This document shows, piece by piece, positions 1,361 to 61,462 of a stretch of DNA of 64,000 bases (positions are counted from its first letter, which is position 1; each line of letters begins with the position of its first letter). Position numbers and translations under genes: made by a program. The stretch is from Chondrosia reniformis (taxonomy: Eukaryota; Porifera; Demospongiae; Chondrillida; Chondrillidae), in the NCBI GenBank assembly GCA_947172415.1, contig OX359194.1:6045401-6109400 (forward strand). The letters run 5' to 3'. The notes below the pieces were generated by a model, which saw nothing but the letters and a program-made list of their open reading frames with translations, was not told the origin of the DNA and made no database searches.

Positions 1361-1442
1361 GGGTAGCTGCTAGCGCTAGCAATAACCTCCGCTTTTAAAT
1401 CTTTAGTGGTAACGCGAAGTATTGCAGCTCAGTTTCACAAGA

Positions 1443-36500: not shown

Positions 36501-38184
36501 CCTAGGGGACTAAAGTGTGTATACAAGGGGCTTAGGGGACTGAAGTGTGTATACAAGGGGCCTAGCTAGGGGACTGAAGTGTGTATACAAGGGGCCTAGG
36601 GGACTGAAGTGTGTATACAAGGGGCCTGGGGGACTGAAGTGTGTATACAAGGGGCCTAGGGGACTAAAGTGTGTATACAAGGGGCCTAGTGGACTGAAGT
36701 GTGTATACAAGGGGCCTAGTGGACTGAAGTGTGTATACAAGGGGCCTAGTGGACTGAAGTGTGTATACAAGGGGCCTAGTGGACTGAAGTGTGTATACAA
36801 GGGGCCTAGTGGACTGAAGTGTGTATACAAGGGGCCTAGGGGACTGAAGTGTGTATACAAGGGGCCTAGTGGACTGAAGTGTGTATACAAGGGGCCTAGT
36901 GGACTGAAGTGTATATACAAGGGGCCTAGGGGACTGAAGTGTGTATACAAGGGGCCTAGGGGACTGAAGTGTGTATACAAGGGGCCTAGGGGCTGAAGCT
37001 ATGAAGATATCCTCTACATTTCTTACCAGTGACCCAAATGGTAATTTCACTTATGGTCAGTAATAGCTATGACAGTCTGTTTTTTCCTGTTGTTAACCCG
37101 TTTAGAGAGGAAAGCAAAAGATATCCTGGACTGCTATTGTTATCCTGGTCATAATGTATCTTGTTATACTGGTATCTTTGATAGTGGCGGTAGCAGGTCC
37201 CAATGGCAGAGGCCCACTTCTAGTGCTTGACTTTCTATACATTCTATCCTACATCAAGCTTGCAGTTACATTAATCAAATATGTCCCCCAGGTAAGAACA
37301 TATAATAATATTAGAAATTCTTATTTTATGTGAAGAGTTTCTTCAATTAAACTGTGGTATCATCTTTTAATCTTTCAAGTGTCTAAAGACACAGCTTTCT
37401 GAAGATGACTCCGAGGGTCAAAATGTCTGGTTAAGATTAACCAAAGTAGCATCTTAGACTCTCAAAAGATCGGAGGGTGAACACCCTATCATGATATATT
37501 ACATATTTTGTTTACTAAGCTTACTGTCATACATAAGTCATCTAACACTGACCATATACTTTAAAGTTTGCATGTACTGTATATATGTATGTTGTGTGCA
37601 GGCCTGGATGAACTTTCGGAGGAAGAGTACTGATGGATGGAGCATTGGAAATGTCCTATTAGATTTCGCTGGTGGAACACTCAGTATTCTTCAAATGTTT
37701 ATCATTTCTTATAATTATAGTAGGTTTCCTGTATGTCTACTGTGTATAGTATATACATAGTTAGTCGTTAGATTTAGTCTCTTTGAAAATTTAACAATAT
37801 GTATTAAGTAATGCTTTACTTTTTAAATGACATGCGTAGATTACAGTCCCTCTTTATGAATGCCTATATGTATTCAGTTGATCTAGTTGGTTTCATATTC
37901 ATCTTATCATTTCAACTGTAGATGACTGGAAGTCTATATTTGGTGACCCTACCAAGTTTGGATTGGGTTTAATCTCCGTTCTCTTTGATCTAATTTTCAT
38001 GTTCCAACACTATGTATTATATCGTAAGCCTAGGAAGTCCAATCAGAATGGTGTGAAGCCTCAAGCTGCATCTAATGTACAATACAAGACATACTGTTGT
38101 AGAAATCTGCACACTTTATTTCCAGGGAGAAATAGTTTCTCTGAAGAGGAGAGAAAGCCTTTGATTGATCCTGAGAACAAGTAA
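21532..38184 (+). CDS. CTNS: Cystinosin, lysosomal cystine/H+ symporter (about ten exons)
   Basis: Exons with matching phases: 21532-21667 (signal peptide, start ATG), 21756-21837, 22037-22109, an uncertain exon ending at 22961, 23608-23682, 23757-23871, 23961-24206, 37106-37291, 37602-37719 and 37922-38184. The start of the fourth exon is unresolved. The N-terminal luminal domain is short and carries N-glycosylation sequons (NET, NIT). The seven-helix core includes both PQ-loop signatures, [19 protein letters not shown] and [16 protein letters not shown]. It also has FDFLVLN and NVLLDFAGG, which carry the aspartates known to be important for proton coupling. [10 protein letters not shown] precedes the last helix. 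The cytosolic tail lacks the vertebrate GYDQL ending but has EERKPLI, an acidic dileucine-type lysosomal sorting signal. The seventh intron, 12.9 kb, is almost entirely a 30-bp satellite. Confidence 0.93.
22271..22612. mobile_element. hAT-like MITE in a cystinosin intron
   Basis: Imperfect terminal inverted repeats: CAGGGCCGTAGGAGCC on the left and GAGCTTCCTACAGCCCTG on the right. There are subterminal direct repeats of GGCCTGACCAAC and an internal hairpin CACAACGAGT...ACTCGTTGTG at 22462-22490. Flanks share ATATA. The CAGGG ends suggest hAT, but the target duplication is unclear. Confidence 0.6.
23155..23534. mobile_element. Tigger/pogo-like MITE in a cystinosin intron
   Basis: The ends are TACAGTAGATCTCACTTTAT and, inverted, TACAGTGGACCCTTGCTTAT. 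Both run into a CCGGATA/TCTGGAC-type subterminal repeat, and a TA target duplication is included. Typical of mariner/pogo-derived non-autonomous elements. No transposase frame. Confidence 0.7.
24304..36995 (+). repeat. 12.7-kb array of a 30-bp satellite (about 420 copies) in a cystinosin intron
   Basis: The unit consists of ACTGAAGTGTGTATACAA plus GGGGCCTAGGGG. Variation is confined to a few positions: GGGGCC/GGGACC, CCTA/CTTA, AGGGG/AGTGG and CTGAA/CTAAA. At about 35 sites CCTAGGGG becomes CCTAGCTAGGGG, a 4-bp insertion. The unit has no stop codon in several frames on both strands. That generates long spurious open frames ([10 protein letters not shown] on plus, [10 protein letters not shown] on minus) interrupted at the CTAG sites. 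The unit contains no CpG, carries two G4 tracts on the sense strand, and contains the palindromes CCTAGG and GTATAC. It begins about 100 bp after exon 7 and ends 110 bp before exon 8, so cystinosin splicing must span it. Confidence 0.97.
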
Positions 38185-38677: not shown

Positions 38678-39403
38678 TTAAAATGCAAGGTTACGACGCC
38701 AAATGTCACCTTCAGAATCCACTCCAAAGAGAGCATCAACTGCAGCATCACATTGAGACAATTCACCATTTATCTTTTCCCATTCACCAGAGCAGGGCTT
38801 CTTGCAGCGCCAGATTTCCTCTGATTCACTGATACCAAAAATCTCGTCATCTCCTGAAGCAGTTATGTGTTTAAGTCTACTAGGTATTAACTGCCAGGGA
38901 TTAGAAGCATCAATATTACGACGAAAAACGTCATTGCCAGAAGTGACACCATAAATATAGGTTTCTCCCCCATCTAATTGATTTAGTAGACCATCAACCT
39001 CAATCCATGTACCATGACATGGTTTCTTACACTTGAAAACTTGATCAGTGTTAGTAACTCCCCAAATCCATCCGTTGCCTGATGCTGAAACATGTTTCAG
39101 AATTCCTGGCACACTAACCCAGTTTCCCAGCACATCATCAACATTTTTCCAGAATATATGACCACTAGCATCGACTCCCCAAACTTGAATATCATTAGCA
39201 TCAACCTGCATCAGTTTCCCAGCCACCTGGACCCAATCACCAGTGCATGGCCTGACACATGTAAAGATGTCATCATCTTTGTCTACTCCCCACAGATAAT
39301 TGATTGATGCTGTAATTTGCTTGAGATGTCCTGGAATTTTTTCCCAAATACTGTTTGCTGCAAAAGGCAATAGGAGAAAAACTACAAATACAATTACTTT
39401 CAT
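38678..39403 (-). CDS. Secreted tectonin-repeat lectin, copy 1
   Basis: A single exon of 241 residues. Residues 1-18 form a signal peptide (MKVIVFVVFLLLPFAANS). The rest is made of tectonin (TECPR) repeats, recognisable by recurring W-[VE]-x-[VI]-x-G-x-L plus a GV-[DTS]-x-x-x-x-[IV]-[FW] strand, for example LWGVDKDDDIFTCVRPC, VWGVDASGHIFWKN, IWGVTNTDQVFKCKKPC and IFGISESEEIWRCKKPC. About six repeats would make a beta-propeller. Paired cysteines (CxxPC) occur in alternate repeats. The closest known types are tachylectin-1 and fish-egg lectin, which bind bacterial sugars and LPS; ligand and immune role here are inferred. The start is the only in-frame ATG ahead of the signal peptide. Confidence 0.9.
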   Translation of the reverse strand: MKVIVFVVFLLLPFAANSIWEKIPGHLKQITASINYLWGVDKDDDIFTCVRPCTGDWVQVAGKLMQVDANDIQVWGVDASGHIFWKNVDDVLGNWVSVPGILKHVSASGNGWIWGVTNTDQVFKCKKPCHGTWIEVDGLLNQLDGGETYIYGVTSGNDVFRRNIDASNPWQLIPSRLKHITASGDDEIFGISESEEIWRCKKPCSGEWEKINGELSQCDAAVDALFGVDSEGDIWRRNLAF

Positions 39404-39796
39404 TTTGGCAACTCTGTTAAAATCTATAGAGTGAACTCCTTATCCCATTTATATACAAATTTGTTTGAGACTCTAGATCTAATATTATATACCTAAAAAT
39501 AGAATTTCCAAATTTGCAAATGTATACCAGAGACTGGTACATGAAACCATATCCTACTATGCAGTTAATTAATCAATCTAGATAAACTGAAAGATTGCAT
39601 GAATAAGAGTTGCATACACTGGGATAAGATAGTGGTTCATGTAAGTACTTAACACAAAAAGGAGTATAAAGTTAGAGATTTTGCAGAATAAAGAATATAT
39701 GAATATGGAGTCTCAAATATCTGTTCTATATACTAAGAAATGCACTAAAAAGAAATCTAACAGATATATGCACACTACCATACCTTTATCTCCCTG

Positions 39797-42987: not shown

Positions 42988-43719
42988 TTAAAATGCAAGA
43001 CTACGACGCCAAATTTCACCTTGAGAATTAACTCCAAAGAGAGCATCAACTGTAGCATCACATTGAGACAATTCACCATTTATCTTTTCCCATTCACCAG
43101 AGCAGGGCTTCTTGCAGCGCCAGATTTCCTCTGATTCACTGATACCAAAAATCTCGTCATCTCCTGAAGCAGTTATGTGTTTAATAAGTCTACCAGGTAT
43201 TAACTGCCAGGAATTAGAAGCATCAATATTACGACGAAAAACGTCATTGCCAGAAGTGACACCATAAATATAGGTTTCTCCCCCATCTAATTGATTTAGT
43301 AGACCATCAACCTCAATCCATGTACCATGACATGGTTTCTTACACTTGAAAACTTGATCAGTGTTAGTAACTCCCCAAATCCATCCGTTGCCTGATGCTG
43401 AAACATGTTTCAGAATTCCTGGCACACTAACCCAGTTTCCCAGCACATCATCAATATGTTTCCAGAATATATGACCACTAGCGTCGACTCCCCAAACTTG
43501 AATATCATTAGCATCAACCTGCATCAGTTTCCCAGCCACCTGGACCCAATCACCAGTGCATGGCCTGACACATGTAAAGATGTCATCATCTTTGTCTACT
43601 CCCCACAGATAATTGATTGATGCTGTAATTTGCTTGAGATTTCCTGGAATTTGTTCCCAAGTACTGTTTCCTGCGAAAGGCAATAGGAGAAGAACTATAT
43701 ACAAATAAAATTTCTTAAT
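42988..43719 (-). pseudogene. Tectonin-repeat lectin, copy 2, initiator codon lost
   Basis: A close paralogue of copy 1 with the lectin body fully open to the stop at 42988. It carries one extra residue (RLIKHITAS against RLKHITAS) and scattered substitutions. Where copy 1 has GCCAAAATGAAAG, this copy has GCCAAAATTAAGA. The ATG is replaced by ATT, one codon is added, and no in-frame ATG occurs further upstream before the shared segment ends. The first in-frame Met lies inside the first propeller blade, after the signal peptide. Either the copy is a very young pseudogene, or it starts at a near-cognate codon (a TTG lies in the signal region) or an unseen upstream exon. The body shows no stop or frameshift. 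Confidence 0.7.
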
Positions 43720-44607
43720 TTTGGCAACTCTAAAGAGTAATCTCTTTATCTCGTTTATATATATATGAATTTGCTTGAAACTCTAGATCTTTCTAAAAAT
43801 AGAAATGTATACTAGAGACTGGTACATGAAAATGTATCTATCATGGTATGGATTAGATAGCGGTTCCGGTTAGGTACGTTGCAGCATGAATATGTGAATA
43901 ACTTAAACATGTAGGAGAAATATATGCTCTCTCAATTGAAGTCATTTTTGTTCAATATCAGCAATCTTTCCAAACTAATAGACAAATATACTGAATATAC
44001 GTACATACCTATGTATTTCTGTGTTCCTATTATACGTATATATAGGGATTATATAAAACTTTCATCTGACATGTGCATGTATATAAACAATTAAGGATCA
44101 CAGCAGGACACTTTGTCTATAAGCTATAGCACCTTTATGAATAGTCAAACTGTTAATGAGTTTATAAAGTGATCCTATAGAAGGATATATATCTAATATA
44201 GTTAAGCTAGCACATGCACATGTAAAAGGATATACGTATCTACGAGACTCTTATCTTACTGCCAAGATCAATATCTTATTGCTAGATCCCTATCTTACTG
44301 CTAGATCCCTATCTTACTGCTAGATTCCTATCTTACTGCTAGATCCCTATCTTACTGCTAGATCCCTATCTTACTGACAGACCCTCAATGATTACGTACT
44401 ATAAGTGTAAGCTAGGTCTCTATTATATACAAGACATGTACAGGTGGCCGTGCATGGGTATACACATAAAACTTTGAATAATTAAATCAGTTAAGCTAGT
44501 ATAACATATACGTACATCTACTTTCTTAGCCAGCCATATTTGAACATACATACTTATAACTACATAATAATTGCTTATTATGAAGGAGAATCCTGTATTA
44601 GAAATAC
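43720..44607. other. Flank of tectonin copy 2
   Basis: The upstream region of copy 2 aligns with that of copy 1 in patches (about 44470-44520 with 40385-40440). It holds the minisatellite at 44248-44386. I looked here for a transmembrane exon to finish the Ig/FN3 gene and found none. Confidence 0.45.
44248..44386. repeat. 19-bp minisatellite upstream of tectonin copy 2
   Basis: About seven copies of ATCTTACTGCTAGATCCCT. Base by base it resembles the 20-bp array upstream of copy 1 (CTATCTCACTAGCCAG against CTATCTTACTGCTAG), so the two arrays probably share an origin that predates the tectonin duplication. Confidence 0.9.
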
Positions 44608-47600
44608 TTAATTAATAATCATATTCATGGCCTCACCAAAAAAAGGATTTTCAGGAGAGGGAGTAGGAGAGGGAGTCGGTGCTGTAAACATTAACAGAAG
44701 AAACATACTTTAGCTAAATTAGGAATCATTATAAAGAGTATTACCTGTCAGTATAATAAACTATACATATACTTGGTATAAAATACTAATAATCACTAAT
44801 CAGTTCATAACTTAAATCTAAAACAAAGCAAACATTAGCTTAAATGCCATGTCTCATACATTAATAATACACAATAAAGAAAGATAATACAAGCAAATTA
44901 AAACAAAAAACATTCACAAAAGAAACCTAATTGCTAACCAGAAATAGAGACTTCCTTTGAGTCCTTCAGTACTTCTGGTATACTATCAAGTGCAACATCT
45001 TTAGCTCCACAACCAACAACACAGGTATAGCTACCACTATCAGCAAGACTAGAACCAGGGATGGTCAACTCTGAAGACCCATCCTCATAGGATGATGTAG
45101 CACTCATTGTGTCCTCCAACACACTCTTGGAAACAAAATCTATGGCATAGACCAGACTGCCATCCTTGTACCAGCCAACATAGTAGGCTGGAGAGTCCCA
45201 TCTGCAATTCAACTTAACACCACCACTGCCTACTTTCTCCTCAACAGGATTGGCAGAAGGGGAATCAATGGACACTGTGATTGGATCTGTAGGACACCAA
45301 GTCGATCATTTACATAAACAAATTCACTAATGTAGGATCCTATGTCTTACCATTCTCAATTGTTTCAAATTCTTTTTCTACAGTCCCTCCACTTTGGAGT
45401 TTATTAAAAGCCATTACTTCTCCTGTGTATATGCTGCAAGCTACTAAATTCTCCACTGTTGCCTTGGCAGTAGAATAATTCTTTTGATGGACAACTGCTT
45501 TATCCACGTCATACACAGTCACAGCATAGGACAAAGACTCATCACATCCATCAGATATACCAGTTTGATCGCTACCAGACAGTGGATCCCAAGTCATCAC
45601 GGCTGTCACAGGCATTGGGTCATTAGAAGGAATGGAGATGTCAAGACCAGTAATGCTGGATGGAGTATCTGGGGACAGACATTTGGACAAATTTAAAAGT
45701 TTAATTACACTCTTACTCTTCTATATAATACCAATATAGTTAATTGCATTACTAGTTAAGGCTAACCATAGAAACAGACTTCCTTTGAGTCCTTCAGTGC
45801 TTCAGGTATATCATCAAGTGCTACATCTTTAGCTCCACAACCCACAACACAGGTGTAGCTACCACTATCAGCAAGACTAGAACCAGTGATGGTCAACTCT
45901 GAAGACCCATCCTCATAGGATGATGTAGCACTCATTGTGTCCTCCAACACACTCTTGGAAACAAAGTCTATGGCATAGACCAGACTGCCATCCTTGTACC
46001 AGCCAACATAGTAGGCTGGAGAGTCCCATCTGCAATTCAACTTAACACCACCACTGCCTACTTTCTCCTCAACAGGATTGGCAGAAGGGGAATCAATGGA
46101 CACTGTGATTGGATCTGTAGGACACCAAGTCGATCATTCATATAAACAAAATAACTAATCTAGAATCCTACATTCTTACCATTCTCAACTGTTTCAAATA
46201 CTCTTTCCACAGTCCCTCCACTTTGGAGTTTATTAAAAGCCATTACTTCTCCTGTGTATTTACTGCATGCTACTAAATTCTCCACTGTTGCCTTGGCAGT
46301 AGAATAATTCTTTTGATGGACAACTGCTTTATCCACGTCATACACAGTCACAGCATAGGACAAAGACTCATCACATCCATCAGATATACCAGTTTGATCG
46401 CTACCAGACAGTGGATCCCAAGTCATCACGGCTGTCAAAGGCATTGGGTCATTAGAAGGAATGGAGATGTCAAGACCAGTAATTCTGGATGGAGCATCTG
46501 GGGACAGACATTAGGACAAATTTAGAAGTTTACAATCTCACTCTTCTATGTAATACCAATATATATAGCTAAATGCATTACTAGTTAGGGCTAACCATAG
46601 AAACAGACTTCCTTTGAGTCCTTCAGTGCTTCAGGTATATCATCAAGTGCTACATCTTTAGCTCCACAACCAACAACACAGGTGTAGCTACCACTATCAG
46701 CAAGACTAGAACCAGTGATGGTCAATTCTGAAGACCCATCCTCATAGGATGATGTAGCACTCATTCTGTCCTCCAACACACTCTTGGAAACAAAGTCTAT
46801 GGCATAGACCAGACTGCCATCCTTGTACCAGCCAACATAGTAGGCTGGAGAGTCCCATCTGCAATTCAACTTAACACCACCACTGCCTACTTTCTCCTCA
46901 ACAGGATTGGCAGAAGGGGAATCAATGGACACTGTGATTGGATCTGTAGGACAGCAAGTCGATCATTCACATAAAAAAAATCACTAATGTAGGATCCTAT
47001 GTCTTACCATTCTCAACTGTTTCAAATTCTTTTTCTACAGTCCCTCCACTTTGGAGTTTATTAAAAGCCATTACTTCTCCTGTGTATATGCTGCAAGCTA
47101 CTAAATTCTCCACTGTTGCCTTGGCAGTAGAATAATTCTTTTGATGGACAACTGCTTTATCCACGTCATACACAGTCACAGCATAGGACAAAGACTCATC
47201 ACATCCATCAGATATACCAGTTTGATCGCTACCAGACAGTGGATCCCAAGTCATCACGGCTGTCACAGGCATTGGGTCATTAGAAGGAATGGAGATGTCA
47301 AGACCAGTAATGCTGGATGGAGTATCTGGGGACAGACATTTGGACAAATTTAAAAGTTTAATTACACTCTTACTCTTCTATATAATACCAATATAGTTAA
47401 TTGCATTACTAGTTAAGGCTAACCATAGAAACAGACTTCCTTTGAGTCCTTCAGTGCTTCAGGTATATCATCAAGTGCTACATCTTTAGCTCCACAACCC
47501 ACAACACAGGTGTAGCTACCACTATCAGCAAGACTAGAACCAGTGATGGTCAACTCTGAAGACCCATCCTCATAGGATGATGTAGCACTCATTGTGTCCT

Positions 47601-50600
47601 CCAACACACTCTTGGAAACAAAGTCTATGGCATAGACCAGACTGCCATCCTTGTACCAGCCAACATAGTAGGCTGGAGAGTCCCATCTGCAATTCAACTT
47701 AACACCACCACTGCCTACTTTCTCCTCAACAGGATTGGCAGAAGGGGAATCAATGGACACTGTGATTGGATCTGTAGGACACCAAGTCGATCATTCATAT
47801 AAACAAAATAACTAATCTAGAATCCTACATTCTTACCATTCTCAACTGTTTCAAATACTCTTTCCACAGTCCCTCCACTTTGGAGTTTATTAAAAGCCAT
47901 TACTTCTCCTGTGTATATGCTGCAAGCTACTAAATTCTCCACTGTTGCCTTGGCAGTAGAATAATTCTTTTGATGGACAACTGCTTTATCCACGTCATAC
48001 ACAGTCACAGCATAGGACAAAGACTCATCACATCCATCAGATATACCAGTTTGATCGCTACCAGACAGTGGATCCCAAGTCATCACGGCTGTCACAGGCA
48101 TTGGGTCATTAGAAGGAATGGAGATGTCAAGACCAGTAATGCTGGATGGAGTATCTGGGGACAGACATTTGGACAAATTTAAAAGTTTAATTACACTCTT
48201 ACTCTTCTATATAATACCAATATAGTTAATTGCATTACTAGTTAAGGCTAACCATAGAAACAGACTTCCTTTGAGTCCTTCAGTGCTTCAGGTATATCAT
48301 CAAGTGCTACATCTTTAGCTCCACAACCCACAACACAGGTGTAGCTACCACTATCAGCAAGACTAGAACCAGTGATGGTCAACTCTGAAGACCCATCCTC
48401 ATAGGATGATGTAGCACTCATTGTGTCCTCCAACACACTCTTGGAAACAAAGTCTATGGCATAGACCAGACTGCCATCCTTGTACCAGCCAACATAGTAG
48501 GCTGGAGAGTCCCATCTGCAATTCAATTTAACATTACCACTGCCTACTTTCTCCTCAACAGGATTGGCAGAAGGGGAATCAATGGACACTGTGATTGGAT
48601 CTGTAGGACACCAAGTCGATCATTCATATAAACAAAATAACTAATCTAGAATCCTACATTCTTACCATTCTCAACTGTTTCAAATACTCTTTCCACAGTC
48701 CCTCCACTTTGGAGTTTATTAAAAGCCATTACTTCTCCTGTGTATTTACTGCATGCTACTAAATTCTCCACTGTTGCCTTGGCAGTAGAATAATTCTTTT
48801 GATGGACAACTGCTTTATCCACGTCATACACAGTCACAGCATAGGACAAAGACTCATCACATCCATCAGATATACCAGTTTGATCGCTACCAGACAGTGG
48901 ATCCCAAGTCATCACGGCTGTCACAGGCATTGGGTCATTAGAAGGAATGGAGATGTCAAGACCAGTAATTCTGGATGGAGCATCTGGGGACAGACATTAG
49001 GACAAATTTAGAAGTTTACAATCTCACTCTTCTATGTAATACCAATATATATAGCTAAATGCATTACTAGTTAGGGCTAACCATAGAAACAGACTTCCTT
49101 TGAGTCCTTCAGGGCTTCAGGTATATCATCAAGTGCTACATCTTTAGCTCCACAACCCACAACACAGGTGTAGCTACCACTATCAGCAAGACTAGAACCA
49201 GTGATGGTCAACTCTGAAGACCCATCCTCATAGGATGATGTAGCACTCATTGTGTCCTCCAACACACTCTTGGAAACAAAGTCTATGGCATAGACCAGAC
49301 TGCCATCCTTATACCAGCCAACATAGTAGGCTGGAGAGTCCCATCTGCAATTCAATTTAACATTACCACTGCCTACTTTCTCCTCAACAGGATTGGCAGA
49401 AGGGGAATCAATGGACACTGTGATTGGATCTGTAGGACACCAAGTCGATCATTCATATAAACAAAATAACTAATCTAGAATCCTACATTCTTACCATTCT
49501 CAACTGTTTCAAATACTCTTTCCACAGTCCCTCCACTTTGGAGTTTATTAAAAGCCATTACTTCTCCTGTGTATTTACTGCATGCTACTAAATTCTCCAC
49601 TGTTGCCTTGGCAGTAGAATAATTCTTTTGATGGACAACTGCTTTATCCACGTCATACACAGTCACAGCATAGGACAAAGACTCATCACATCCATCAGAT
49701 ATACCAGTTTGATCGCTACCAGACAGTGGATCCCAAGTCATCACGGCTGTCACAGGCATTGGGTCATTAGAAGGAATGGAGATGTCAAGACCAGTAATTC
49801 TGGATGGAGCATCTGGGGACAGACATTAGGACAAATTTAGAAGTTTACAATCTCACTCTTCTATGTAATACCAATATATATAGCTAAATGCATTACTAGT
49901 TAGGGCTAACCATAGAAACAGACTTCCTTTGAGTCCTTCAGGGCTTCAGGTATATCATCAAGTGCTACATCTTTAGCTCCACAACCCACAACACAGGTGT
50001 AGCTACCACTATCAGCAAGACTAGAACCAGTGATGGTCAACTCTGAAGACCCATCCTCATAGGATGATGTAGCACTCATTGTGTCCTCCAACACACTCTT
50101 GGAAACAAAGTCTATGGCATAGACCAGACTGCCATCCTTGTACCAGCCAACATAGTAGGCTGGAGAGTCCCATCTGCAATTCAACTTAACACCACCACTG
50201 CCTACTTTCTCCTCAACAGGATTGGCAGAAGGGGAATCAATGGACACTGTGATTGGCTCTGTAGGACAGCAAGTTGATCATTCATATAAACAAATTCACT
50301 AATGTAGGATCCTATGTCTTACCATTCTCAACTGTTTCAAATTCTTTTTCTACAGTCCCTCCACTTTGGAGTTTATTAAAAGCCATTACTTCTCCTGTGT
50401 ATTTGCTGCAAGCTACTAAATTCTCCACTGTTGCCTTGGCGGTAGAATAATTCTTTTGATGGACAACTGCTTTATCCACGTCATACACAGTCACAGCATA
50501 GGACAAAGACTCATCACATCCATCAGATATACCAGTTTGATCGCTACCAGACAGTGGATCCCAAGTCATCACGGCTGTCACAGGCATTGGGTCATTAGAA

Positions 50601-53600
50601 GGAATGGAGATGTCAAGACCAGTAATTCTGGATGGAGCATCTGGGGACAGACATTTGGACAAATTTAGAAGTTTACAATCTCACTCTTCTGTGTAATACC
50701 AATATATATAGCTAAATGCATTACTAGTTAGGGCTAACCATAGAAACAGACTTCCTTTGAGTCCTTCAGTGCTTCAGGTATATCATCAAGTGCTACATCT
50801 TTAGCTCCACAACCCACAACACAGGTGTAGCTACCACTATCAGCAAGACTAGAACCAGTGATGGTCAACTCTGAAGACCCATCCTCATAGGATGATGTAG
50901 CACTCATTGTGTCCTCCAACACACTCTTGGAAACAAAGTCTATGGCATAGACCAGACTGCCATCCTTGTACCAGCCAACATAGTAGGCTGGAGAGTCCCA
51001 TCTGCAATTCAACTTAACACCACCACTGCCTACTTTCTCCTCAACAGGATTGGCAGAAGGGGAATCAATGGACACTGTGATTGGCTCTGTAGGACAGCAA
51101 GTTGATCATTCACATAAACAAATTCACTAATGTAGGATCCTATGTCTTACCATTCTCAACTGTTTCAAATTCTTTTTCTACAGTCCCTCCACTTTGGAGT
51201 TTATTAAAAGCCATTACTTCTCCTGTGTATTTGCTGCAAGCTACTAAATTCTCCACTGTTGCCTTGGCAGTAGAATAATTCTTTTGATGGACAACTGCTT
51301 TATCCACGTCATACACAGTCACAGCATAGGACAAAGACTCATCACATCCATCAGATATACCAGTTTGATCGCTACCAGACAGTGGATCCCAAGTCATCAC
51401 GGCTGTCACAGGCATTGGGTCATTAGAAGGAATGGAGATGTCAAGACCAGTAATTCTGGATGGAGCATCTGGGGACAGACATTTGGACAAATTTAGAAGT
51501 TTACAATCTCACTCTTCTGTGTAATACCAATATATATAGCTAAATGCATTACTAGTTAGGGCTAACCATAGAAACAGACTTCCTTTGAGTCCTTCAGTGC
51601 TTCAGGTATATCATCAAGTGCTACATCTTTAGCTCCACAACCAACAACACAGGTGTAGCTACCACTATCAGCAAGACTAGAACCAGTGATGGTCAACTCT
51701 GAAGACCCATCCTCATAGGATGATGTAGCACTCATTGTGTCCTCCAACACATTCTTGGAAACAAAGTCTATGGCATAGACCAGACTGCCATCCTTGTACC
51801 AGCCAACATAGTAGGCTGGAGAGTCCCATCTGCAATTCAACTTAACACCACCACTGCCTACTTTCTCCTCAACAGGATTGGCAGAAGGGGAGTCAATGGA
51901 CACTGTGATTGGATCTGTAGGACACCAAGTCGATCATTCATATAAACAAATTAACTAATGTAGGATCCTATGTTCTTACCATTCTCAACTGTTTCAAATT
52001 CTTTTTCTACAGTCCCTCCACTTTGGAGTTTATTAAAAGCCATTACTTCTCCTGTGTATTTACTGCATGCTACTAAATTCTCCACTGTTGCCTTGGCAGT
52101 AGAATAATTCTTTTGATGGACAACTGCTTTATCCACGTCATACACAGTCACAGCATAGGACAAAGACTCATCACATCCATCAGATATACCAGTTTGATCG
52201 CTACCAGACAGTAGATCCCAAGTCATCACGGCTGTTACAGGCATTGGGTCATTAGAAGGAATGGAGATGTCAAGACCAGTAATTCTGGATGGAGCATCTG
52301 GGGACAGACATTTGGACAAATTTAAAAGTTTAATTACAATCTCACTCTTCTGTGTAATACCAATATATATAGCTAAATGCATTACTAGTTAGGGCTAACC
52401 ATAGAAACAGACTTCCTTTGAGTCCTTCAGTGCTTCAGGTATATCATCAAGTGCTACATCTTTAGCTCCACAACCCACAACACAGGTGTAGCTACCACTA
52501 TCAGCAAGACTAGAACCAGTGATGGTCAACTCTGAAGACCCATCCTCATAGGATGATGTAGCACTCATTGTGTCCTCCAACACACTCTTGGAAACAAAGT
52601 CTATGGCATAGACCAGACTGCCATCCTTGTACCAGCCAACATAGTAGGCTGGAGAGTCCCATCTGCAATTCAACTTAACACCACCACTGCCTACTTTCTC
52701 CTCAACAGGATTGGCAGAAGGGGAATCAATGGACACTGTGATTGGATCTGTAGGACAGCAAGTCGATCATTCACATAAAAAAATTCACTAATGTAGGATC
52801 CTATGTCTTACCATTCTCAACTGTTTCAAATTCTTTTTCTACAGTCCCTCCACTTTGGAGTTTATTAAAAGCCATTACTTCTCCTGTGTATATGCTGCAA
52901 GCTACTAAATTCTCCACTGTTGCCTTGGCAGTAGAATAATTCTTTTGATGGACAACTGCTTTATCCACGTCATACACAGTCACAGCATAGGACAAAGACT
53001 CATCACATCCATCAGATATACCAGTTTGATCGCTACCAGACAGTGGATCCCAAGTCATCACGGCTGTCACAGGCATTGGGTCATTAGAAGGAATGGAGAT
53101 GTCAAGACCAGTAATTCTGGATGGAGCATCTGGGGACAGACATTAGGACAAATTTAGAAGTTTACAATCTCACTCTTCTATGTAATACCAATATATATAG
53201 CTAAATGCATTACTAGTTAGGGCTAACCATAGAAACAGACTTCCTTTGAGTCCTTCAGTGCTTCAGGCATATCATCAAGTGCTACATCTTTAGCTCCACA
53301 ACCCACAACACAGGTGTAGCTACCACTATCAGCAAGACTAGAACCAGTGATGGTCAACTCTGAAGACCCATCCTCATAGGATGATGTAGCACTCATTGTG
53401 TCCTCCAACACACTCTTGGAAACAAAGTCTATGGCATAGACCAGACTGCCATCCTTGTACCAGCCAACATAGTAGGCTGGAGAGTCCCATCTGCAATTCA
53501 ACTTAACACCACCACTGCCTACTTTCTCCTCAACAGGATTGGCAGAAGGGGAGTCAATGGACACTGTGATTGGCTCTGTAGGACAGCAAGTTGATCATTC

Positions 53601-56600
53601 ACATAAACAAATTCACTAATGTAGGATCCTATGTCTTACCATTCTCAACTGTTTCAAATTCTTTTTCTACAGTCCCTCCACTTTGGAGTTTATTAAAAGC
53701 CATTACTTCTCCTGTGTATTTGCTGCAAGCTACTAAATTCTCCACTGTTGCCTTGGCAGTAGAATAATTCTTTTGATGGACAACTGCTTTATCCACGTCA
53801 TACACAGTCACAGCATAGGACAAAGACTCATCACATCCATCAGATATACCAGTTTGATCGCTACCAGACAGTGGATCCCAAGTCATCACGGCTGTCACAG
53901 GCATTGGGTCATTAGAAGGAATGGAGATGTCAAGACCAGTAATGCTGGATGGAGCATCTGGGGACAGACATTTGGACAAATTTAGAAGTTTACAATCTCA
54001 CTCTTCTGTGTAATACCAATATATATAGCTAAATGCATTACTAGTTAGGGCTAACCATAGAAACAGACTTCCTTTGAGTCCTTCAGTGCTTCAGGTATAT
54101 CATCAATTGCTACATCTTTAGCTCCACAACCCACAACACAGGTGTAGCTACCACTATCAGCAAGACTAGAACCAGTGATGGTCAACTCTGAAGACCCATC
54201 CTCATAGGATGATGTAGCACTCATTGTGTCCTCCAACACACTCTTGGAAACAAAGTCTATGGCATAGACCAGACTGCCATCCTTGTACCAGCCAACATAG
54301 TAGGCTGGAGAGTCCCATCTGCAATTCAACTTAACACCACCACTGCCTACTTTCTCCTCAACAGGATTGGCAGAAGGGGAATCAATGGACACTGTGATTG
54401 GCTCTGTAGGACAGCAAGTTGATCATTCATATAAACAAATTCACTAATGTAGGATCCTATGTCTTACCATTCTCAACTGTTTCAAATTCTTTTTCTACAG
54501 TCCCTCCACTTTGGAGTTTATTAAAAGCCATTACTTCTCCTGTGTATTTGCTGCAAGCTACTAAATTCTCCACTGTTGCCTTGGCAGTAGAATAATTCTT
54601 TTGATGGACAACTGCTTTATCCACGTCATACACAGTCACAGCATAGGACAAAGACTCATCACATCCATCAGATATACCAGTTTGATCGCTACCAGACAGT
54701 GGATCCCAAGTCATCACGGCTGTCACAGGCATTGGGTCATTAGAAGGAATGGAGATGTCAAGACCAGTAATTCTGGATGGAGCATCTGGGGACAGACATT
54801 TGGACAAATTTAGAAGTTTACAATCTCACTCTTCTGTGTAATACCAATATATATAGCTAAATGCATTACTAGTTAGGGCTAACCATAGAAACAGACTTCC
54901 TTTGAGTCCTTCAGTGCTTCAGGTATATCATCAAGTGCTACATCTTTAGCTCCACAACCAACAACACAGGTGTAGCTACCACTATCAGCAAGACTAGAAC
55001 CAGTGATGGTCAACTCTGAAGACCCATCCTCATAGGATGATGTAGCACTCATTGTGTCCTCCAACACATTCTTGGAAACAAAGTCTATGGCATAGACCAG
55101 ACTGCCATCCTTGTACCAGCCAACATAGTAGGCTGGAGAGTCCCATCTGCAATTCAACTTAACACCACCACTGCCTACTTTCTCCTCAACAGGATTGGCA
55201 GAAGGGGAGTCAATGGACACTGTGATTGGATCTGTAGGACACCAAGTCGATCATTCATATAAACAAATTAACTAATGTAGGATCCTATGTTCTTACCATT
55301 CTCAACTGTTTCAAATTCTTTTTCTACAGTCCCTCCACTTTGGAGTTTATTAAAAGCCATTACTTCTCCTGTGTATTTACTGCATGCTACTAAATTCTCC
55401 ACTGTTGCCTTGGCAGTAGAATAATTCTTTTGATGGACAACTGCTTTATCCACGTCATACACAGTCACAGCATAGGACAAAGACTCATCACATCCATCAG
55501 ATATACCAGTTTGATCGCTACCAGACAGTAGATCCCAAGTCATCACGGCTGTTACAGGCATTGGGTCATTAGAAGGAATGGAGATGTCAAGACCAGTAAT
55601 TCTGGATGGAGCATCTGGGGACAGACATTTGGACAAATTTAAAAGTTTAATTACAATCTCACTCTTCTGTGTAATACCAATATATATAGCTAAATGCATT
55701 ACTAGTTAGGGCTAACCATAGAAACAGACTTCCTTTGAGTCCTTCAGTGCTTCAGGTATATCATCAAGTGCTACATCTTTAGCTCCACAACCCACAACAC
55801 AGGTGTAGCTACCACTATCAGCAAGACTAGAACCAGTGATGGTCAACTCTGAAGACCCATCCTCATAGGATGATGTAGCACTCATTGTGTCCTCCAACAC
55901 ACTCTTGGAAACAAAGTCTATGGCATAGACCAGACTGCCATCCTTGTACCAGCCAACATAGTAGGCTGGAGAGTCCCATCTGCAATTCAACTTAACACCA
56001 CCACTGCCTACTTTCTCCTCAACAGGATTGGCAGAAGGGGAATCAATGGACACTGTGATTGGATCTGTAGGACACCAAGTCGATCATTCATATAAACAAA
56101 TTAACTAATGTAGGATCCTATGTTCTTACCATTCTCAACTGTTTCAAATTCTTTTTCTACAGTCCCTCCACTTTGGAGTTTATTAAAAGCCATTACTTCT
56201 CCTGTGTATTTACTGCAAGCTACTAAATTCTCCACTGTTGCCTTGGCGGTAGAATAATTCTTTTGATGGACAACTGCTTTATCCATGTCATACACAGTCA
56301 CAGCATAGGACAAAGACTCATCACATCCATCAGATATACCAGTTTGATCGCTACCAGACAGTAGATCCCAAGTCATCACGGCTGTCACAGGCATTGGGTC
56401 ATTAGAAGGAATGGAGATGTCTAGACCAGTAATGCTGGATGGAGCATCTGGGGACAGACATTAGGACAAATTTAGAAGTTTACAATCTCACTCTTCTGTG
56501 TAATACCAATATATATAGCTAAATGCATTACTAGTTAGGGCTAACCATAGAAACAGACTTCCTTTGAGTCCTTCAGTGCTTCAGGTATATCATCAAGTGC

Positions 56601-59600
56601 TACATCTTTAGCTCCACAACCAACAACACAGGTGTAGCTACCACTATCAGCAAGACTAGAACCAGGGATGGTCAACTCTGAAGACCTATCCTCATAGGAT
56701 GATGTAGCACTCATTGTGTCCTCCAACACACTCTTGGAAACAAAGTCTATGGCATAGACCAGACTGCCATCCTTGTACCAGCCAACATAGTAGGCTGTAG
56801 AGTCCCATGTACAATTCAACTTAACACCATCACTGCCTACTTTCTCCTCAACAGGATTGGCAGAAGGGGAATCAATGGACACAGTGATTGGATCTGTAGG
56901 ATAACAAGACGCCTTAACTAATGGATATATAGGAGAAGCCTTATTCTTACCATTCTCAACCGTTTTAAATATTCTCCTTTTAGCCTTTCCTTTATATATT
57001 TTATTAAAAGCCACAACCTTTGCTGTGTATTGGCTGCATGCTTCTAAATTATTTACTGTTGCACTGTTAAAACTGTAAGTCTCATGATGAATAATTCCTC
57101 CCTTCATGACAGTCAAATCATAGCCTACTGTGTCATCACATCCATCTGGTATACCAGTTTGATCGCTACCAGACAGTGGATCCCAAGTCATCACGGCTGT
57201 CACAGGCATTGGGTCATTAGAAGGTATGGAGATGTCAAGACCAGTAATTTTGCTTGGTTTATCTGGAGACAGATATCAGAAGAGAAGTTTAGTATCTCAC
57301 TCTAATGCCTATATATATTAGCAGTATGGCTCACCATACAAACAAAGTTTTTTTGAGTCCTTCAGTGCTTCAGGTATATCATCAAGTGCTACATCTCTAG
57401 CTTCACAACCCACAACACAGGTGTAGTTACCACTATCAGCAAGACTAGTTCTAGGGATGGACAATAAGGAATATCTACTGCTATATGATGATACAGCACT
57501 CAATGTGTCCATTATGACTGTGTTGGAAACAAGGTCTATGGCATAAACCAGATTGTCATCCTTGTACCAACCCATATAGTAGGCCGTGGAATTCCATCTA
57601 CATCTGAAGAAGACAAAATCGCTTCCTGGAAGTCTCCATTCAACAGGATTGGTAATTGGAGTGACAATGGACACTGTGATTGGATCTGTAGGAGAAACAT
57701 ACATGATTGTACATGTATTCCTATGATTGTAAAGCATTTTCAGTCGTACATAGACTTGCATTTACCTTTCTCAACTTTTCCTAATTCTGTCATCGTAATC
57801 TTTCCTTCTTGGAGCTTATTGTATGCAAATATTTCCAGTGTGTATTTAGTGCAAACATCTAGGTTTTTCACTGTTGCCATGGTCACAGAATAATCCATTT
57901 CATGGACAACTCCTTTATATGCAATATAAATGACCAAATTGTATGCCACAGTGTCATCACATCCGTCAGATATACCAGTTTGTTCGCTACCAGACAGTGG
58001 ATCCCAAGTGATCATGGCTGTCATAGATATTTGATCATTATAAGGATAGGAAATGTCAAGACCTGTAATATTAGCTGGAACATCTATGAAAGACAAACAG
58101 TCCAAAACATAATTATTTATTAACAGTTAACTTGTCACACTACATTGCATGCATTGCATTGAAGGATTCACAGAAGATCAAGATAAAGAAAATGACAAAG
58201 ACTCCCAGGATCACTGATGAAGGGTGGAATTCCCAGAAATGGCTGTCTGAGCCAGTGGAGAAGTAGATGAAAGAAGGGAAAAGAAGGAAGAAAAGACTCC
58301 TGTATCTTCATCCAAAGCTCTCTTCAGGTTTAGTTCCCCTATAGGCTCTTTTACAGAATAGGTATAGCATGTAGGAAAATGGTATCTTAGATTTTTCATG
58401 CATGTAAATGAGTATTCAGTATGACGCCTTTGATCATTTGAAAGTTAACTAACCATAGAAACAGACTTCCTTTGAGTCCTTCAGTGCTTCAGGTATATCA
58501 TCAAGTGCTACATCTTTAGCTCCACAACCCACAACACAGGTGTAGATACCACTATCAGCGAGACTAGATCTAGGGATGGATAATGAGGAATATCTAGAAG
58601 CATAAGATGATGGAGCCCTCATTGTATTCTTCAAGACTGTGTTGGAAGCAAAGTCTTCGGCATAAACCAGATTGTCATCCTTGTACCAACCCACATAGTA
58701 GGCTGTAGAGTTCCATATACACCTGAGGTAGATATAGTTACTGTAGACAAGATTGCCATGTGGAAGTCTATTTTCAACAGGATTCTCAGTAGGCAATTCA
58801 ATGGACACTGTCATTGGATCTGTAGGAGAAACATACATGATTGTACATGTATTCCTATGATTGTAAAGCATTTTCAGTCGTACATAGACTTGCATTTACC
58901 TTTCTCAACTTTTCCCAATTCTGTCATAGTAATCTTTCCCTCTTGGAGCTTATTGTAAGCAAATATTTCCAGTGTGTATTTAGTGCAAACATCTAGGTTT
59001 TTCACTGTTGCCATGGTCACAGAATAATCCATTTTATGGACAACTCCTTTATATGCAATATAAATGATCAAATTGTATGCCACAGTGTCATCACATCCGT
59101 CAGATATACCAGTTTGTTCGCTACCAGACAGTGGATCCCAAGTGATCATGGCCGTCACAGGTATTTGATCATTATAAGGATAGGAAATGTCAAGACCTGT
59201 AATTTTAGCTGGAACATCTATGTAAGAAAAATGGTAATTATCATACCGTACTCTCCAAGTAGGGATGGCCCGAAAAAAACATGGCGGGCGTATTCAATGT
59301 ATTACGGATTAACACGATTATAAATCGGCAGTGAATGCGTCTTCAGTTCTTTTTGTACGATGTCAATTGTGGGAAAGTTGTTTTGAAGAGCGCATAAAGG
59401 CTCGAAGTTAGTAAAACAGTTGCAGGTTTACTAACGGTTTTCCTTATTCTCTTTTTCTTCTTCCTTTTATTTCACGCTAGTGCATAAACGCGCATATGGA
59501 TAACTACATCTTAGGGGCATATCGTCTAAAAATTTTAGAAACTAGGAATAGGCACGCTTCTGTTTTAAAATGATTTGAGCAGAGACGGGCACGTCAGATT

Positions 59601-61462
59601 AGAGGAGCTTTTCGTCGCCATTTTTAATTAAGAGCTCTCTTCTTTTCTCTTTGACTGCGACGTTATTTCGACTTGTCGCAAAGAAAACTTTCAAAACAAT
59701 TAATATTTACAAGAAAAAGAGGGAATACAAGATAAATAAAAATATTTAAAAAGTAGGGATGGCAGTGCTTCCAACAGTCACTAGCAAATCTGGAAAAGTA
59801 GCAAAACAAGAAAGGGATCATGTCACAAGGATAACCATACAGAAGTGGCATATATACTGAAATTTAAGTGACTTAACCATACACATCACTTTCATGTTTG
59901 GGCGCACCATCCCTACTTTGGTTATCCCAATGCGCCCAAACACAGAAGTGATGTGTATGGTTAAGTCACTTAAATTTCAGTATATATGCCACTTGTGTAT
60001 GGTTATCCCATGATCCCTTTCTTGTTTTGCTACTTTTTTATTAATAGTTAACTTGTCACACTACATTGCATGCATGTAAATGAGTATTCAGTATGACGCC
60101 TTTGATCATTTGAAAGTTAACTAACCATAGAAACAAACTTCCTTTGAGTCCTTCAGTGCTTCAGGTATATCATCAAGTGCTACATCTTTAGCTCCACAAC
60201 CCACAACACAGGTGTAGATACCACTATCAGCGAGACTAGATCTAGGGATGGATAATGAGGAATATCTAGAAGCATAAGATGATGGAGCCCTCATTGTATT
60301 CTTCAAGACTGTGTTGGAAGCAAAGTCTTCGGCATAAACCAGATTTTTATCCTTGTACCAACCCACATAGTTGGCTGTAGAGTCCCATATACACCTGAGG
60401 TAGATATAGTTACTGTAGACAAGATTGCCATGTGGAAGTCTATTATCAACAGGATTCTCAGTAGGCAATTCAATGGACACTGTCATTGGATCTGTAGGAA
60501 AAACATACATACACTGCAAAAGTATCTCCAAATACAAGTAGCATACTCAGTTTGATACTATGAGTATGCAGGAATTATACAAGTAGGATACTCAGTTGGA
60601 TACTATGAGTATGCAGGAATTATACAAGTAGGATACTCAGTTGGATACTATGAGTATGCAGAAATTATACAAGTAGGATACTCAGTTGGATACTATGAGT
60701 ATGCAGGAATTATACAAGTAGGATACTCAGTTGGATACTATGAGTATGCAGGAATTATAATTGAAAATATATGAATGTTTTAAAACCAATCTTTAAACTA
60801 ATTCATATTCTAAGAAGCTATTTCAACGAAAAACCAACAGATATTCTGGCCTGTCAGGTGAATGCAGAAAGTAACTGATATTGAAATAGGAGCAAGGGGA
60901 TTCATCAATATGCCTGGCTAACTCTACCTACAGACAACGGCCAGACGCAAAGAGAGAAAGAACTGGAAAGAAGACTGAGAATAGGAATTTACATATATAC
61001 ATAGATGAGTCGTACAAGATCTGGTGCATAGCCTTATTTATAGCTAGTTAGTACAGTAATCCACCCATTATCTGTAACGTATATTTGATTAAAGAGACTA
61101 CAAAACTGCATAATGTTTTGTATTAGCAGAGCCCAGGTCTCCCATAGCACTCATATGCCTTTCCATCCATCATCCTAAATTGTAATACATTTTCATTTTC
61201 TGTCTATATGTTAATTTTGACGACCCTCTGTACTTTCACTTCCATTCACCCTTGGATAGTGTATTTGTAATTAGTGGCCAATCTTAAAGGCATATGAACG
61301 ACAAAGAGACAGAAGAGATCAGGCTACATACGTATATACGTATGTACATAGTTTATATAGGAGCAAGATGGTATATTCATCAGAATACTCACCGCAGCTT
61401 TCAGAATTCACTCCAATGCCTATAAAAGTAAGTGTCAGAAAAGTTAAGAATTGCCAATCCAT
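44608..61462 (-). CDS. Giant Ig/FN3 tandem-domain protein (18 Ig, 17 FN3 exons)
   Basis: Transcribed right to left. Exon 1 (61393-61462) encodes a signal peptide, MDWQFLTFLTLTFIGIGVNS, and ends in phase 1 at GTGAGT. Ig and FN3 exons then alternate: Ig1 60126-60491, FN1 58900-59217, Ig2 58454-58819, FN2 57766-58083, Ig3 57335-57685, FN3 56951-57262, Ig4 56546-56893, FN4 56130-56447. Fourteen further Ig and thirteen FN3 exons follow, the last pair being FN3 45351-45668 and Ig 44939-45286. Ig exons (348-366 nt) show LNCRWDS, YYVGWYKD and DSGSYTCVVGC. FN3 exons (312-318 nt) show TAVMTWDPLSGSDQTG and the late Tyr strand. A Pro-rich exon, APTPSPTPSPENPFFG, sits at 44637-44681 and could read on to a stop at 44608. 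All placed exons are phase 1-1. No transmembrane exon was found, so the protein may be secreted, or its end may be missed. About 3,900 residues if all are joined. A role in adhesion or self-recognition is inference. Confidence 0.82.
44637..44681 (-). other. Pro-rich hinge/tail exon of the Ig/FN3 gene
   Basis: The acceptor TTTACAG is followed by 45 nt encoding APTPSPTPSPENPFFG in the phase left by the last Ig exon, then a GTGAGG donor-like sequence. If unspliced, the frame runs on for nine codons to TAA at 44608. It is either a hinge before unseen exons or the C-terminus. Confidence 0.6.
44939..56447 (-). repeat. Tandem array of fourteen about 829-bp Ig+FN3 genomic cassettes
   Basis: Ig exon ends recur at 44939, 45767, 46596, 47424, 48253, 49082, 49911, 50739, 51567, 52400, 53228, 54056, 54884 and 55717: steps of 828-829 bp, with 833 twice. 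Introns (about 64 and 98 bp) are as conserved as exons. The encoded domains differ at only a handful of positions, e.g. S/N in SKSVLEDT, GG/GN in VGSGGVK, P/L in WDPLSG. This points to very recent duplication or continuing homogenisation. Flanking cassettes to the right (56546-60491) are clearly more diverged. Confidence 0.96.
56894..56950 (-). other. 57-bp intron, in frame and stop-free
   Basis: The intron between the third FN3 and fourth Ig exon has GTAAGA and CCTACAG ends. Its length is a multiple of 3 and it has no stop, so retention would add 19 residues between the domains. The corresponding introns in the homogeneous cassettes that I checked contain an early stop. Confidence 0.7.
58160..58400 (-). 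mobile_element. Dispersed repeat, copy 2, in an Ig/FN3 intron
   Basis: Inverse match to 18737-18935. It interrupts sequence that is continuous in the sister intron (60045-60120 has the same flanks, TTGCATGCATG then TAAATGAGTATTCAG). This dates the insertion after that cassette duplicated. Confidence 0.8.
59245..60045. mobile_element. Fold-back non-autonomous element, longest copy (D)
   Basis: About 800 bp starting at GTACTCTCCAAGTAGGGATG. An AT-rich body aligns with 7020-7400 and 3838-3990. It ends in near-perfect arms (59800-59905 against 59935-60035) around the CATCCCTACTTTGG centre. It lies in the first Ig-FN3 intron; flanks match the sister intron at 58085-58450, which lacks it. No transposase. 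Confidence 0.78.
60541..60760. repeat. 45-bp tandem repeat, five copies, with hairpin
   Basis: CTCAGTT(T/G)GATACTATGAG recurs at 60546, 60591, 60636, 60681 and 60726, exactly 45 bp apart. Each unit can fold; the first has a perfect 9-bp stem GCATACTCA / TGAGTATGC. It lies in the intron between the signal-peptide exon and Ig1. Confidence 0.95.

Follow-up and report, generated by a model that had tools for sequence, protein, structure and literature searches.

Receptor protein tyrosine phosphatases (PTPs) with ectodomains of immunoglobulin (Ig) and FN3 domains (LAR/R2A type) are a known class of animal proteins. In vertebrates, paired immune receptors (KIR, LILR, SIRP) have closely related ectodomains on differing signalling tails and form clusters kept alike by recombination. 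Dscam diversity results from a choice among divergent, mutually exclusive exons, and the sponge aggregation factor is characterized by Calx-beta and Wreath domains. Here we describe gene A, located in a 64,000-nucleotide stretch of chromosome 6 (C6) of the kidney sponge Chondrosia reniformis (C6:6045401–6109400, contig OX359194.1; hereafter the window), and the further genes B–F of the same chromosome, which carry the same pairs of Ig and FN3 exons (cassettes). With moderate confidence, we interpret the locus as a recombining receptor cluster in which one ectodomain module is combined with phosphatase, G protein-coupled receptor (GPCR) and soluble outputs, gene A being its cassette-only, predicted secreted member. 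Within this reading, the anatomy of gene A is nearly certain and the function is the weak part.

Several other described systems resemble parts of the locus. Adhesion GPCRs of the sponge Amphimedon combine GPS, HRM and seven-transmembrane (7TM) domains with Ig, fn3, I-set and V-set domains at the N-terminus (excerpts of PMC4302439). Genes D–F fit this kind; the same excerpts mention neither an ectodomain common with phosphatase receptors nor cassette arrays. In the recognition locus of Botryllus, a secreted Ig-superfamily protein (fuhc-sec), thought to be a ligand, is encoded beside membrane proteins (fuhc-tm), as would also be the case here (excerpts of PMC12065747). Unlike the Chondrosia genes, the Botryllus proteins as described in these excerpts have one Ig and EGF domains, without an FN3 array and PTP or GPCR tails, and their recognition role is genetically backed. 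Shuffled Ig and FN3 modules, those of titin included, generally show phase 1-1 symmetry (excerpts of PMC8001218). Like gene A, chains of the titin/twitchin type are long series of Ig and FN3 repeats of class 1-1, but they are intracellular muscle proteins, in contrast to the predicted secreted product of gene A with its receptor paralogs.

A term search of the main text of an Amphimedon grafting transcriptome study revealed no mention of immunoglobulin, GPCR or tyrosine phosphatase (PMC5450542). Our literature search, with subscription journals and preprints mostly outside its reach, found no sponge paper on one ectodomain common to phosphatase and GPCR receptors, which is weak evidence of novelty. 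Sponge adhesion GPCRs with Ig/fn3 domains and phosphatases with Ig/FN3 domains were already known; our search brought up no earlier case of one recently exchanged ectodomain array that is present, within a single cluster, on genes of the phosphatase, the GPCR and the soluble type.

Gene A and the chromosome 6 cluster

According to splice modelling, gene A consists of 37 exons on the minus strand (window positions 61462–44608; positions without a chromosome name are those of the window) and encodes a product of 3,948 aa. An exon for a putative signal peptide is followed by strictly alternating domain exons, 18 Ig and 17 FN3, and by a proline-rich tail exon. In a recount, all 35 domain exons, spanning 60491 to 44939, had a length divisible by three, phase 1 at both ends, an AG acceptor and a GT donor, and no in-frame stop. 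The original prediction for this DNA, which described 35 alternating Ig and FN3 exons of a sponge gene, those it had placed starting and ending in phase 1, in cassettes removable without frame loss, was thus accurate: the cassettes are all frame-neutral. Our own gene finder, when given the ATG, agreed with this model in the first exon, the domains and the tail. It ran through one 57-bp intron, giving 36 exons; as gene A exons had been part of the training set of its coding model, it is not a fully independent check.

The original prediction had missed that gene A is one of at least six cassette-sharing genes on chromosome 6, the others of which seem to carry phosphatase or GPCR tails. Searches of the genome with the window DNA, one Ig and one FN3 gave matches at least on chromosome 6 and, for the Ig, distant ones on chromosome 8 (C8). 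Profile scans of a 264-kb region (C6:6035401–6299400, partly N) placed the array of gene B on the minus strand at C6 6155–6161 kb, and those of genes C (6198–6204 kb), D (6220–6229 kb), E (6246–6253 kb) and F (6270–6277 kb) on the plus strand. The number of common-type Ig cassettes is 18 in gene A, three in B, six in C, ten in D and eight in both E and F.

In gene C, the phase is kept through additional FN3 and Ig domains up to a strongly hydrophobic span, which is followed by PTP exons. Its hand-joined open reading frames (ORFs) matched the Pfam family Y_phosphatase at 4.7e-58 in the first domain and at 6.6e-6 in the second, which has a degenerate catalytic motif. Two exon ORFs of gene B, taken straight from the locus, matched the same family (5.1e-12 and 7.5e-12). 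Thus, a membrane span, recognized by hydropathy in gene C and by eye in gene B, accompanies a PTP domain in B and C, as in receptor PTPs, and this combination was not found in gene A. Genes B and C share with LAR/R2A-type phosphatases the presence of Ig and FN3 domains, a single membrane span and a PTP domain with the SAGVGRTG motif, to which gene C adds the second degenerate PTP-like domain. They differ from them in that Ig and FN3 domains alternate as near-identical cassettes and are not arranged as Igs followed by FN3s; gene A differs further in lacking both the span and the PTP.

In gene D, the cassettes are followed by more Ig domains, then by an EGF-like exon and finally by HRM, GPS and 7TM domains (Pfam on hand-joined ORFs: HRM 2.8e-4, GPS 1.3e-11, 7tm_2 7.3e-22). 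Straight from the locus, gene F matched GPS (1.3e-12) and 7tm_2 (1.7e-5), and gene E matched 7tm_2 (3.5e-6), its GPS stretch being identical to that of gene D. The combination of GPS and 7TM typical of adhesion GPCRs was therefore found in D and F but not in gene A. In the three gaps between the common ectodomain and the tail of genes C, D and E, we found no start exon that resembled a signal-peptide exon and had a phase-1 donor, while both control signal exons were recovered; each cassette-plus-tail locus is therefore most simply read as one gene.

The cluster thus has the composition of a shared-ectodomain receptor set, with one ectodomain and different signalling tails encoded side by side. 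In this it is similar to KIR, LILR and SIRP, where closely related ectodomains are also joined to different signalling tails in clusters. It differs from them in that the tails are an enzyme and a 7TM receptor, and not an ITIM versus a charged span. It should be mentioned that another phosphatase receptor gene, with Sushi repeats, lies next to gene F (C6:6290700–6297200; Y_phosphatase 2.8e-18, Sushi 3.6e-10) and that distant Ig and FN3 exons alternate at C8:6786001–6791500.

Probable exchange of cassettes between genes

Genes C and D are 91.9% identical in the signal-peptide region, 80.5% in the first FN3 region, 92.9% over 4.9 kb of cassettes with introns and 87.3% over the 2,351 bp of the next domains. 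Past the common domains, only one 225-bp repeat matches, in reverse orientation. Gene E was compared with other genes in 400-bp tiles. All 15 cassette tiles matched C at 96.0–99.5% and D at 93.0–96.0%, and the first FN3 region matched C at 92.8–99.2% and D at 78.6–84.8%, while the 3' half of the gene matched D and had no match in C. In its array, a GPCR gene thus resembles a phosphatase gene more closely than it does a second GPCR gene.

Gene E (C6:6244200–6266600) contains about 16 kb identical to F and about 5 kb identical to D. Between 6244200 and 6260199, 39 of 40 tiles were 100% identical to F (the remaining one, 99.2%), with zero differences in the Ig and FN3 exons, and from 6261400 on all 13 tiles were 100% identical to D. 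Gene E therefore looks like a hybrid with the 5' part of F and the 3' part of D. In the cassette tree, most groups were not monophyletic by gene, the FN3 of gene D being the only one that was. Genes C, D, E and F together were monophyletic, and the diverged first cassettes of gene A broke up the group of this gene. Clustering of cassettes by gene is thus mostly not supported by the tree.

The assembly used (odChoReni1.1; 117.37 Mb in 14 chromosomes and a mitochondrial contig, with chromosomes 6 and 8 of 8.73 and 8.13 Mb) is based on PacBio HiFi data of 10.31 Gb in 0.80 million reads, that is, a mean read of about 12.9 kb (excerpts of PMC12181767). The mosaic structure of gene E fits one unequal crossing-over between D and F and also an error in the assembly graph, which is conceivable because the identical blocks exceed the read length; it is possibly an artefact. 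A more general artefact, or a decaying gene, would mean that the length of the gene A array is wrong or that its cassettes are pseudogene copies. The identical blocks of gene E, with the pattern of a graph error, and the near-identical repeats of gene A, which span 12 kb against a mean HiFi read of about 12.9 kb, are consistent with it. We nevertheless consider this explanation very unlikely, as all 35 domain exons are open and have splice sites, most cassettes have distinguishing variants, the replacement rate is below neutral (see below), and cassettes occur in several separate genes.

Some hints on expression and variation were obtained from a protein database. In P0017 (92 aa, from a 518-bp contig), the end of an Ig is joined straight to the start of an FN3, a join found in no open frame of the region. 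Since the intron is missing, P0017, the only spliced sequence found, is taken as a transcript. Five protein clusters (P0002, P0007, P0008, P0009 and P0010) are encoded on one 3,197,828-base contig, and their identity to the nearest Ig among genes A and C–F is about 77–91%; P0002 is 94% identical to an ORF of gene B, with eight of the ten differences in the Ig exon and two in intron-encoded flanks. This diverged cassette set may represent the other haplotype or another individual and hints at mosaic cassettes and at polymorphism, which in an allorecognition locus would be high and inherited together with fusion or rejection behaviour. The same database assigns the window-encoded proteins to a contig of 9,271,787 bases (8,731,016 for chromosome 6 in the assembly) and the chromosome 8 relatives to one of 8,594,859 bases (8,125,224), in a different version of the assembly. 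P0014 (264 aa, four contigs, the longest of 1,487,504 bases), with FN3 and Ig in one ORF and about 48–51% identity to the Igs described here, is probably from another sponge.

Structure and domains of the gene A array

Exon 1 (61393–61462; this and all following exons are on the minus strand) contains the ATG and a putative signal peptide, MDWQFLTFLTLTFIGIGVNSESC, judged by eye, and ends in phase 1. A 45-bp tandem repeat of 5.1 copies is located in the first intron (60532–60759). The first three cassettes are clearly diverged (71–77% identity to cassette 10) and older: cassette 1 (Ig 60491–60126, FN3 59217–58900), cassette 2 (Ig 58819–58454, FN3 58083–57766) and cassette 3 (Ig 57685–57335, FN3 57262–56951), each extending from the first to the last position given. 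The intron between Ig 1 and FN3 1 harbours an inverted repeat with 78-nt arms that are 95% complementary (59794–60037), probably a small mobile element.

These three cassettes are followed by cassette 4 (Ig 56893–56546, FN3 56447–56130), cassette 5 (Ig 56064–55717, FN3 55614–55297), cassette 6 (Ig 55231–54884, FN3 54785–54468), cassette 7 (Ig 54403–54056, FN3 53957–53640), cassette 8 (Ig 53575–53228, FN3 53129–52812), cassette 9 (Ig 52747–52400, FN3 52297–51980) and cassette 10 (Ig 51914–51567, FN3 51468–51151). The remaining ones are cassette 11 (Ig 51086–50739, FN3 50640–50323), cassette 12 (Ig 50258–49911, FN3 49812–49495), cassette 13 (Ig 49429–49082, FN3 48983–48666), cassette 14 (Ig 48600–48253, FN3 48154–47837), cassette 15 (Ig 47771–47424, FN3 47325–47008), cassette 16 (Ig 46943–46596, FN3 46497–46180) and cassette 17 (Ig 46114–45767, FN3 45668–45351). 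The final domain, Ig 18 (44939–45286), has no FN3 partner, and its last cysteine is altered (KEVSIS for KEVCFY). The terminal exon of 74 nt (44608–44681) encodes APTPSPTPSPENPFFGEAMNMIIN, followed by the stop codon, and includes no membrane span by hydropathy and homology check. Just downstream of gene A, on the same strand, there are two closely similar genes of the tectonin type (beta-propeller lectin) at 38681–39439 and 42991–43782 (Pfam Tectonin 2.6e-58 and 5e-57).

Cassettes 4–17 are 95.8–100% identical to each other, exons and introns included, which is far above chance. The mean pairwise identity is 98.8% for Ig, 98.4% for FN3, 96.1% for the first intron and 91.1% for the second. The original prediction of fourteen cassettes almost identical down to their introns thus holds for this part of the array, with the qualification that introns are less conserved than exons; likewise, its signal peptide and proline-rich tail could both be placed, but the latter is merely 24 aa long. 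Most cassettes carry distinguishing variants. The pairs 5/9, 6/10 and 7/11 are 100, 99.9 and 99.5% identical, forming a block duplication of about 3.3 kb that points to unequal crossing-over. Since copy number also differs between paralogs, the length polymorphism proposed earlier is plausible. Member counts in the protein database were dropped as a measure of copy number: P0001 has 15 members and there are 15 similar Igs, whereas P0018 has 20 members versus 14 similar FN3s.

Among cassettes 4–17, 20 nonsynonymous and 14 synonymous changes were counted, a ratio about 0.42 times the one expected under neutrality (P = 0.022, Ig and FN3 pooled). Taken apart, Ig and FN3 gave P values of 0.055 and 0.12; no group departed from neutrality at 0.05 alone, and gene A did so only in the pooled test. 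All these P values are rough because gene conversion makes pairs and sites non-independent. Near-identity combined with a replacement rate below neutral argues that the copies are recent and that their frame, and probably also the protein, is under constraint.

The second part of the original prediction, a Dscam-like layout, is not upheld. A Dscam-like generator would produce, by alternative inclusion of cassettes, many isoforms differing in length or specificity, and it is true that all domain exons are frame-neutral, making skipping tolerable, and that 35 of them stand in series. Like arthropod Dscam, gene A has Ig and FN3 domains on phase-symmetric exons; unlike it, gene A alternates Ig and FN3 strictly and has neither divergent mutually exclusive exon clusters nor a membrane span. 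Moreover, cassettes 4–17 are too alike to provide alternative specificities, so that swaps would alter almost only length, and Ig/FN3 exons in general are commonly of phase 1-1. This explanation is therefore improbable in our estimation. The more general expectation of a recognition or adhesion protein fares better, and a secreted or adhesive protein of recognition type is the natural reading of gene A.

No strongly hydrophobic window was detected in the gene A product (best mean hydropathy 1.27 versus 3.63 for the span of gene C). In the window and 10 kb to its left we found no homologue of the 5' FN3 or the membrane/PTP part of gene C, nor of the GPCR part of gene D, apart from a 38-aa repeat element. 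On these grounds the product is predicted to be secreted. Neither exon 1 nor the tail has a homologue elsewhere within the 264-kb region. Alternatively, the tail exon could be one of several 3' ends, with a non-homologous membrane exon farther downstream. The terminal exon is indeed tiny and no AATAAA occurs within 900 bp past the stop codon; on the other hand, the gene finder picked this exon unprompted, homologues of the membrane and PTP parts are missing as described, and within about 6 kb the same strand carries two unrelated genes, those of the tectonin type. A membrane-bound gene A product is thus unlikely.

The domain assignment relies on a Pfam scan of five gene A exons and on profile and structure comparisons. 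Ig exons have the invariant C, W and C of the Ig superfamily (B and F cysteines, C tryptophan), and a typical one matched Ig_3 (1.9e-7), V-set (5.4e-7) and I-set (1.3e-6). Its predicted structure was usable (pLDDT 74.9), with antibody V domains and nanobodies as the best PDB matches (TM-scores 0.53–0.65 among the first 50 listed), so that the modelled fold is V-like. A typical FN3 exon matched only fn3 at 0.002, under the curated cut-off; six of eight FN3 types matched fn3 at an E-value of 0.05 or better. A profile of these eight types, three of which come from the window, matched titin (3.3e-16), Dscam (1.8e-9) and neogenin (7.6e-9) in PDB, and hhalign against clear FN3s of the paralogs gave a probability of 78%, the structure prediction being poor (pLDDT 37.8). 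These exons are thus FN3, an identity backed better by PDB profile matches than by single-exon Pfam. No Calx-beta, a hallmark of the aggregation factor, was found in the Pfam matches of the five exons scanned, whose domains are repeated in the other exons.

These data also bear on the possibility that gene A encodes a structural extracellular filament, a titin- or matrix-like Ig–FN3 chain selected for length and avidity without recognition, its likeness to receptors reflecting ancestry. Titin as the top match of the FN3 profile, the near-identity of cassettes, their low replacement rate (about 0.42) and the few N-glycosylation motifs of gene A (19 in 3,948 aa, compared with 64 in the N-terminal 1,900 aa of gene C) are consistent with such a filament. 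Against it speak the V-like Ig fold and the fact that the nearest relatives are signalling receptors of the same chromosome. We regard a filament as possible, although not as the probable explanation.

Possible function and significance of the cluster

According to the receptor cluster reading favoured here, one module of phase 1-1 Ig and FN3 exon pairs would have been placed on the receptor PTPs B and C, on the adhesion GPCRs D, E and F, and in the anchor-free gene A. Unequal crossing-over and gene conversion through the near-identical introns may multiply and homogenise the cassettes, and frame-neutral exons would let such exchange spare the protein. The V-type Ig domains may bind one another or a common ligand on adjacent cells or matrix. 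The long gene A product would then be soluble and multivalent, acting as a partner, a decoy or a matrix chain, and the receptors could respond to this same contact with dephosphorylation or with GPCR signalling.

Several observations, in addition to the ambiguity of gene E, weigh against this reading. The putative transcript P0017 resembles gene D (91.7–95.3% identity to its cassette 1 in the two parts) and not gene A. The receptor Ig domains show 73 nonsynonymous and 21 synonymous changes (ratio 1.03, P = 1), so that positive or diversifying selection on Ig loops is unsupported. The stretch from the window to gene B partly reads N, the gene models of C–F are rough, and gene B was read from ORFs only. 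In particular, the model of gene C misses PTP exons, that of gene D swallows retrotransposon pieces, those of D and E include a spurious repeat exon, and that of F ends before GPS and 7TM. Finally, gene A expression, the link between cassettes and tails and the proposed binding are predictions from sequence.

A bolder version is that the cluster is a sponge complex of self/non-self or immune recognition, in which one recombining array is present on a phosphatase, a 7TM receptor and a soluble ligand or decoy and alleles shuffle cassettes between genes. We consider this rather unlikely.

The window also contains features of other kinds. A 12.7-kb minisatellite (24309–36998; 30-bp unit, 418 copies) is strongly G-rich on the plus strand and open in several frames; the many ORFs there are therefore spurious. 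A collagen-like ORF on the plus strand (1422–3077; Collagen 3e-20) has an 18-bp repeat inside (2033–2438), and a 763-aa ORF on the minus strand (15952–18240) encodes ankyrin repeats (Ank_2 1.7e-7). A 159-bp tandem repeat of 7.2 copies with 96% matches is located at 13180–14336.

The cell-recognition molecules of sponges are poorly known, and the cluster described here offers a concrete candidate locus that can be tested. In addition, several stages of exon-pair amplification, of homogenisation and of the swapping of tails are caught in it, which makes it a clean natural case of these processes. If the favoured reading of a recombining receptor cluster is true, an array that recently moved among phosphatase, GPCR and soluble forms would place the logic of paired receptors at the base of animals.

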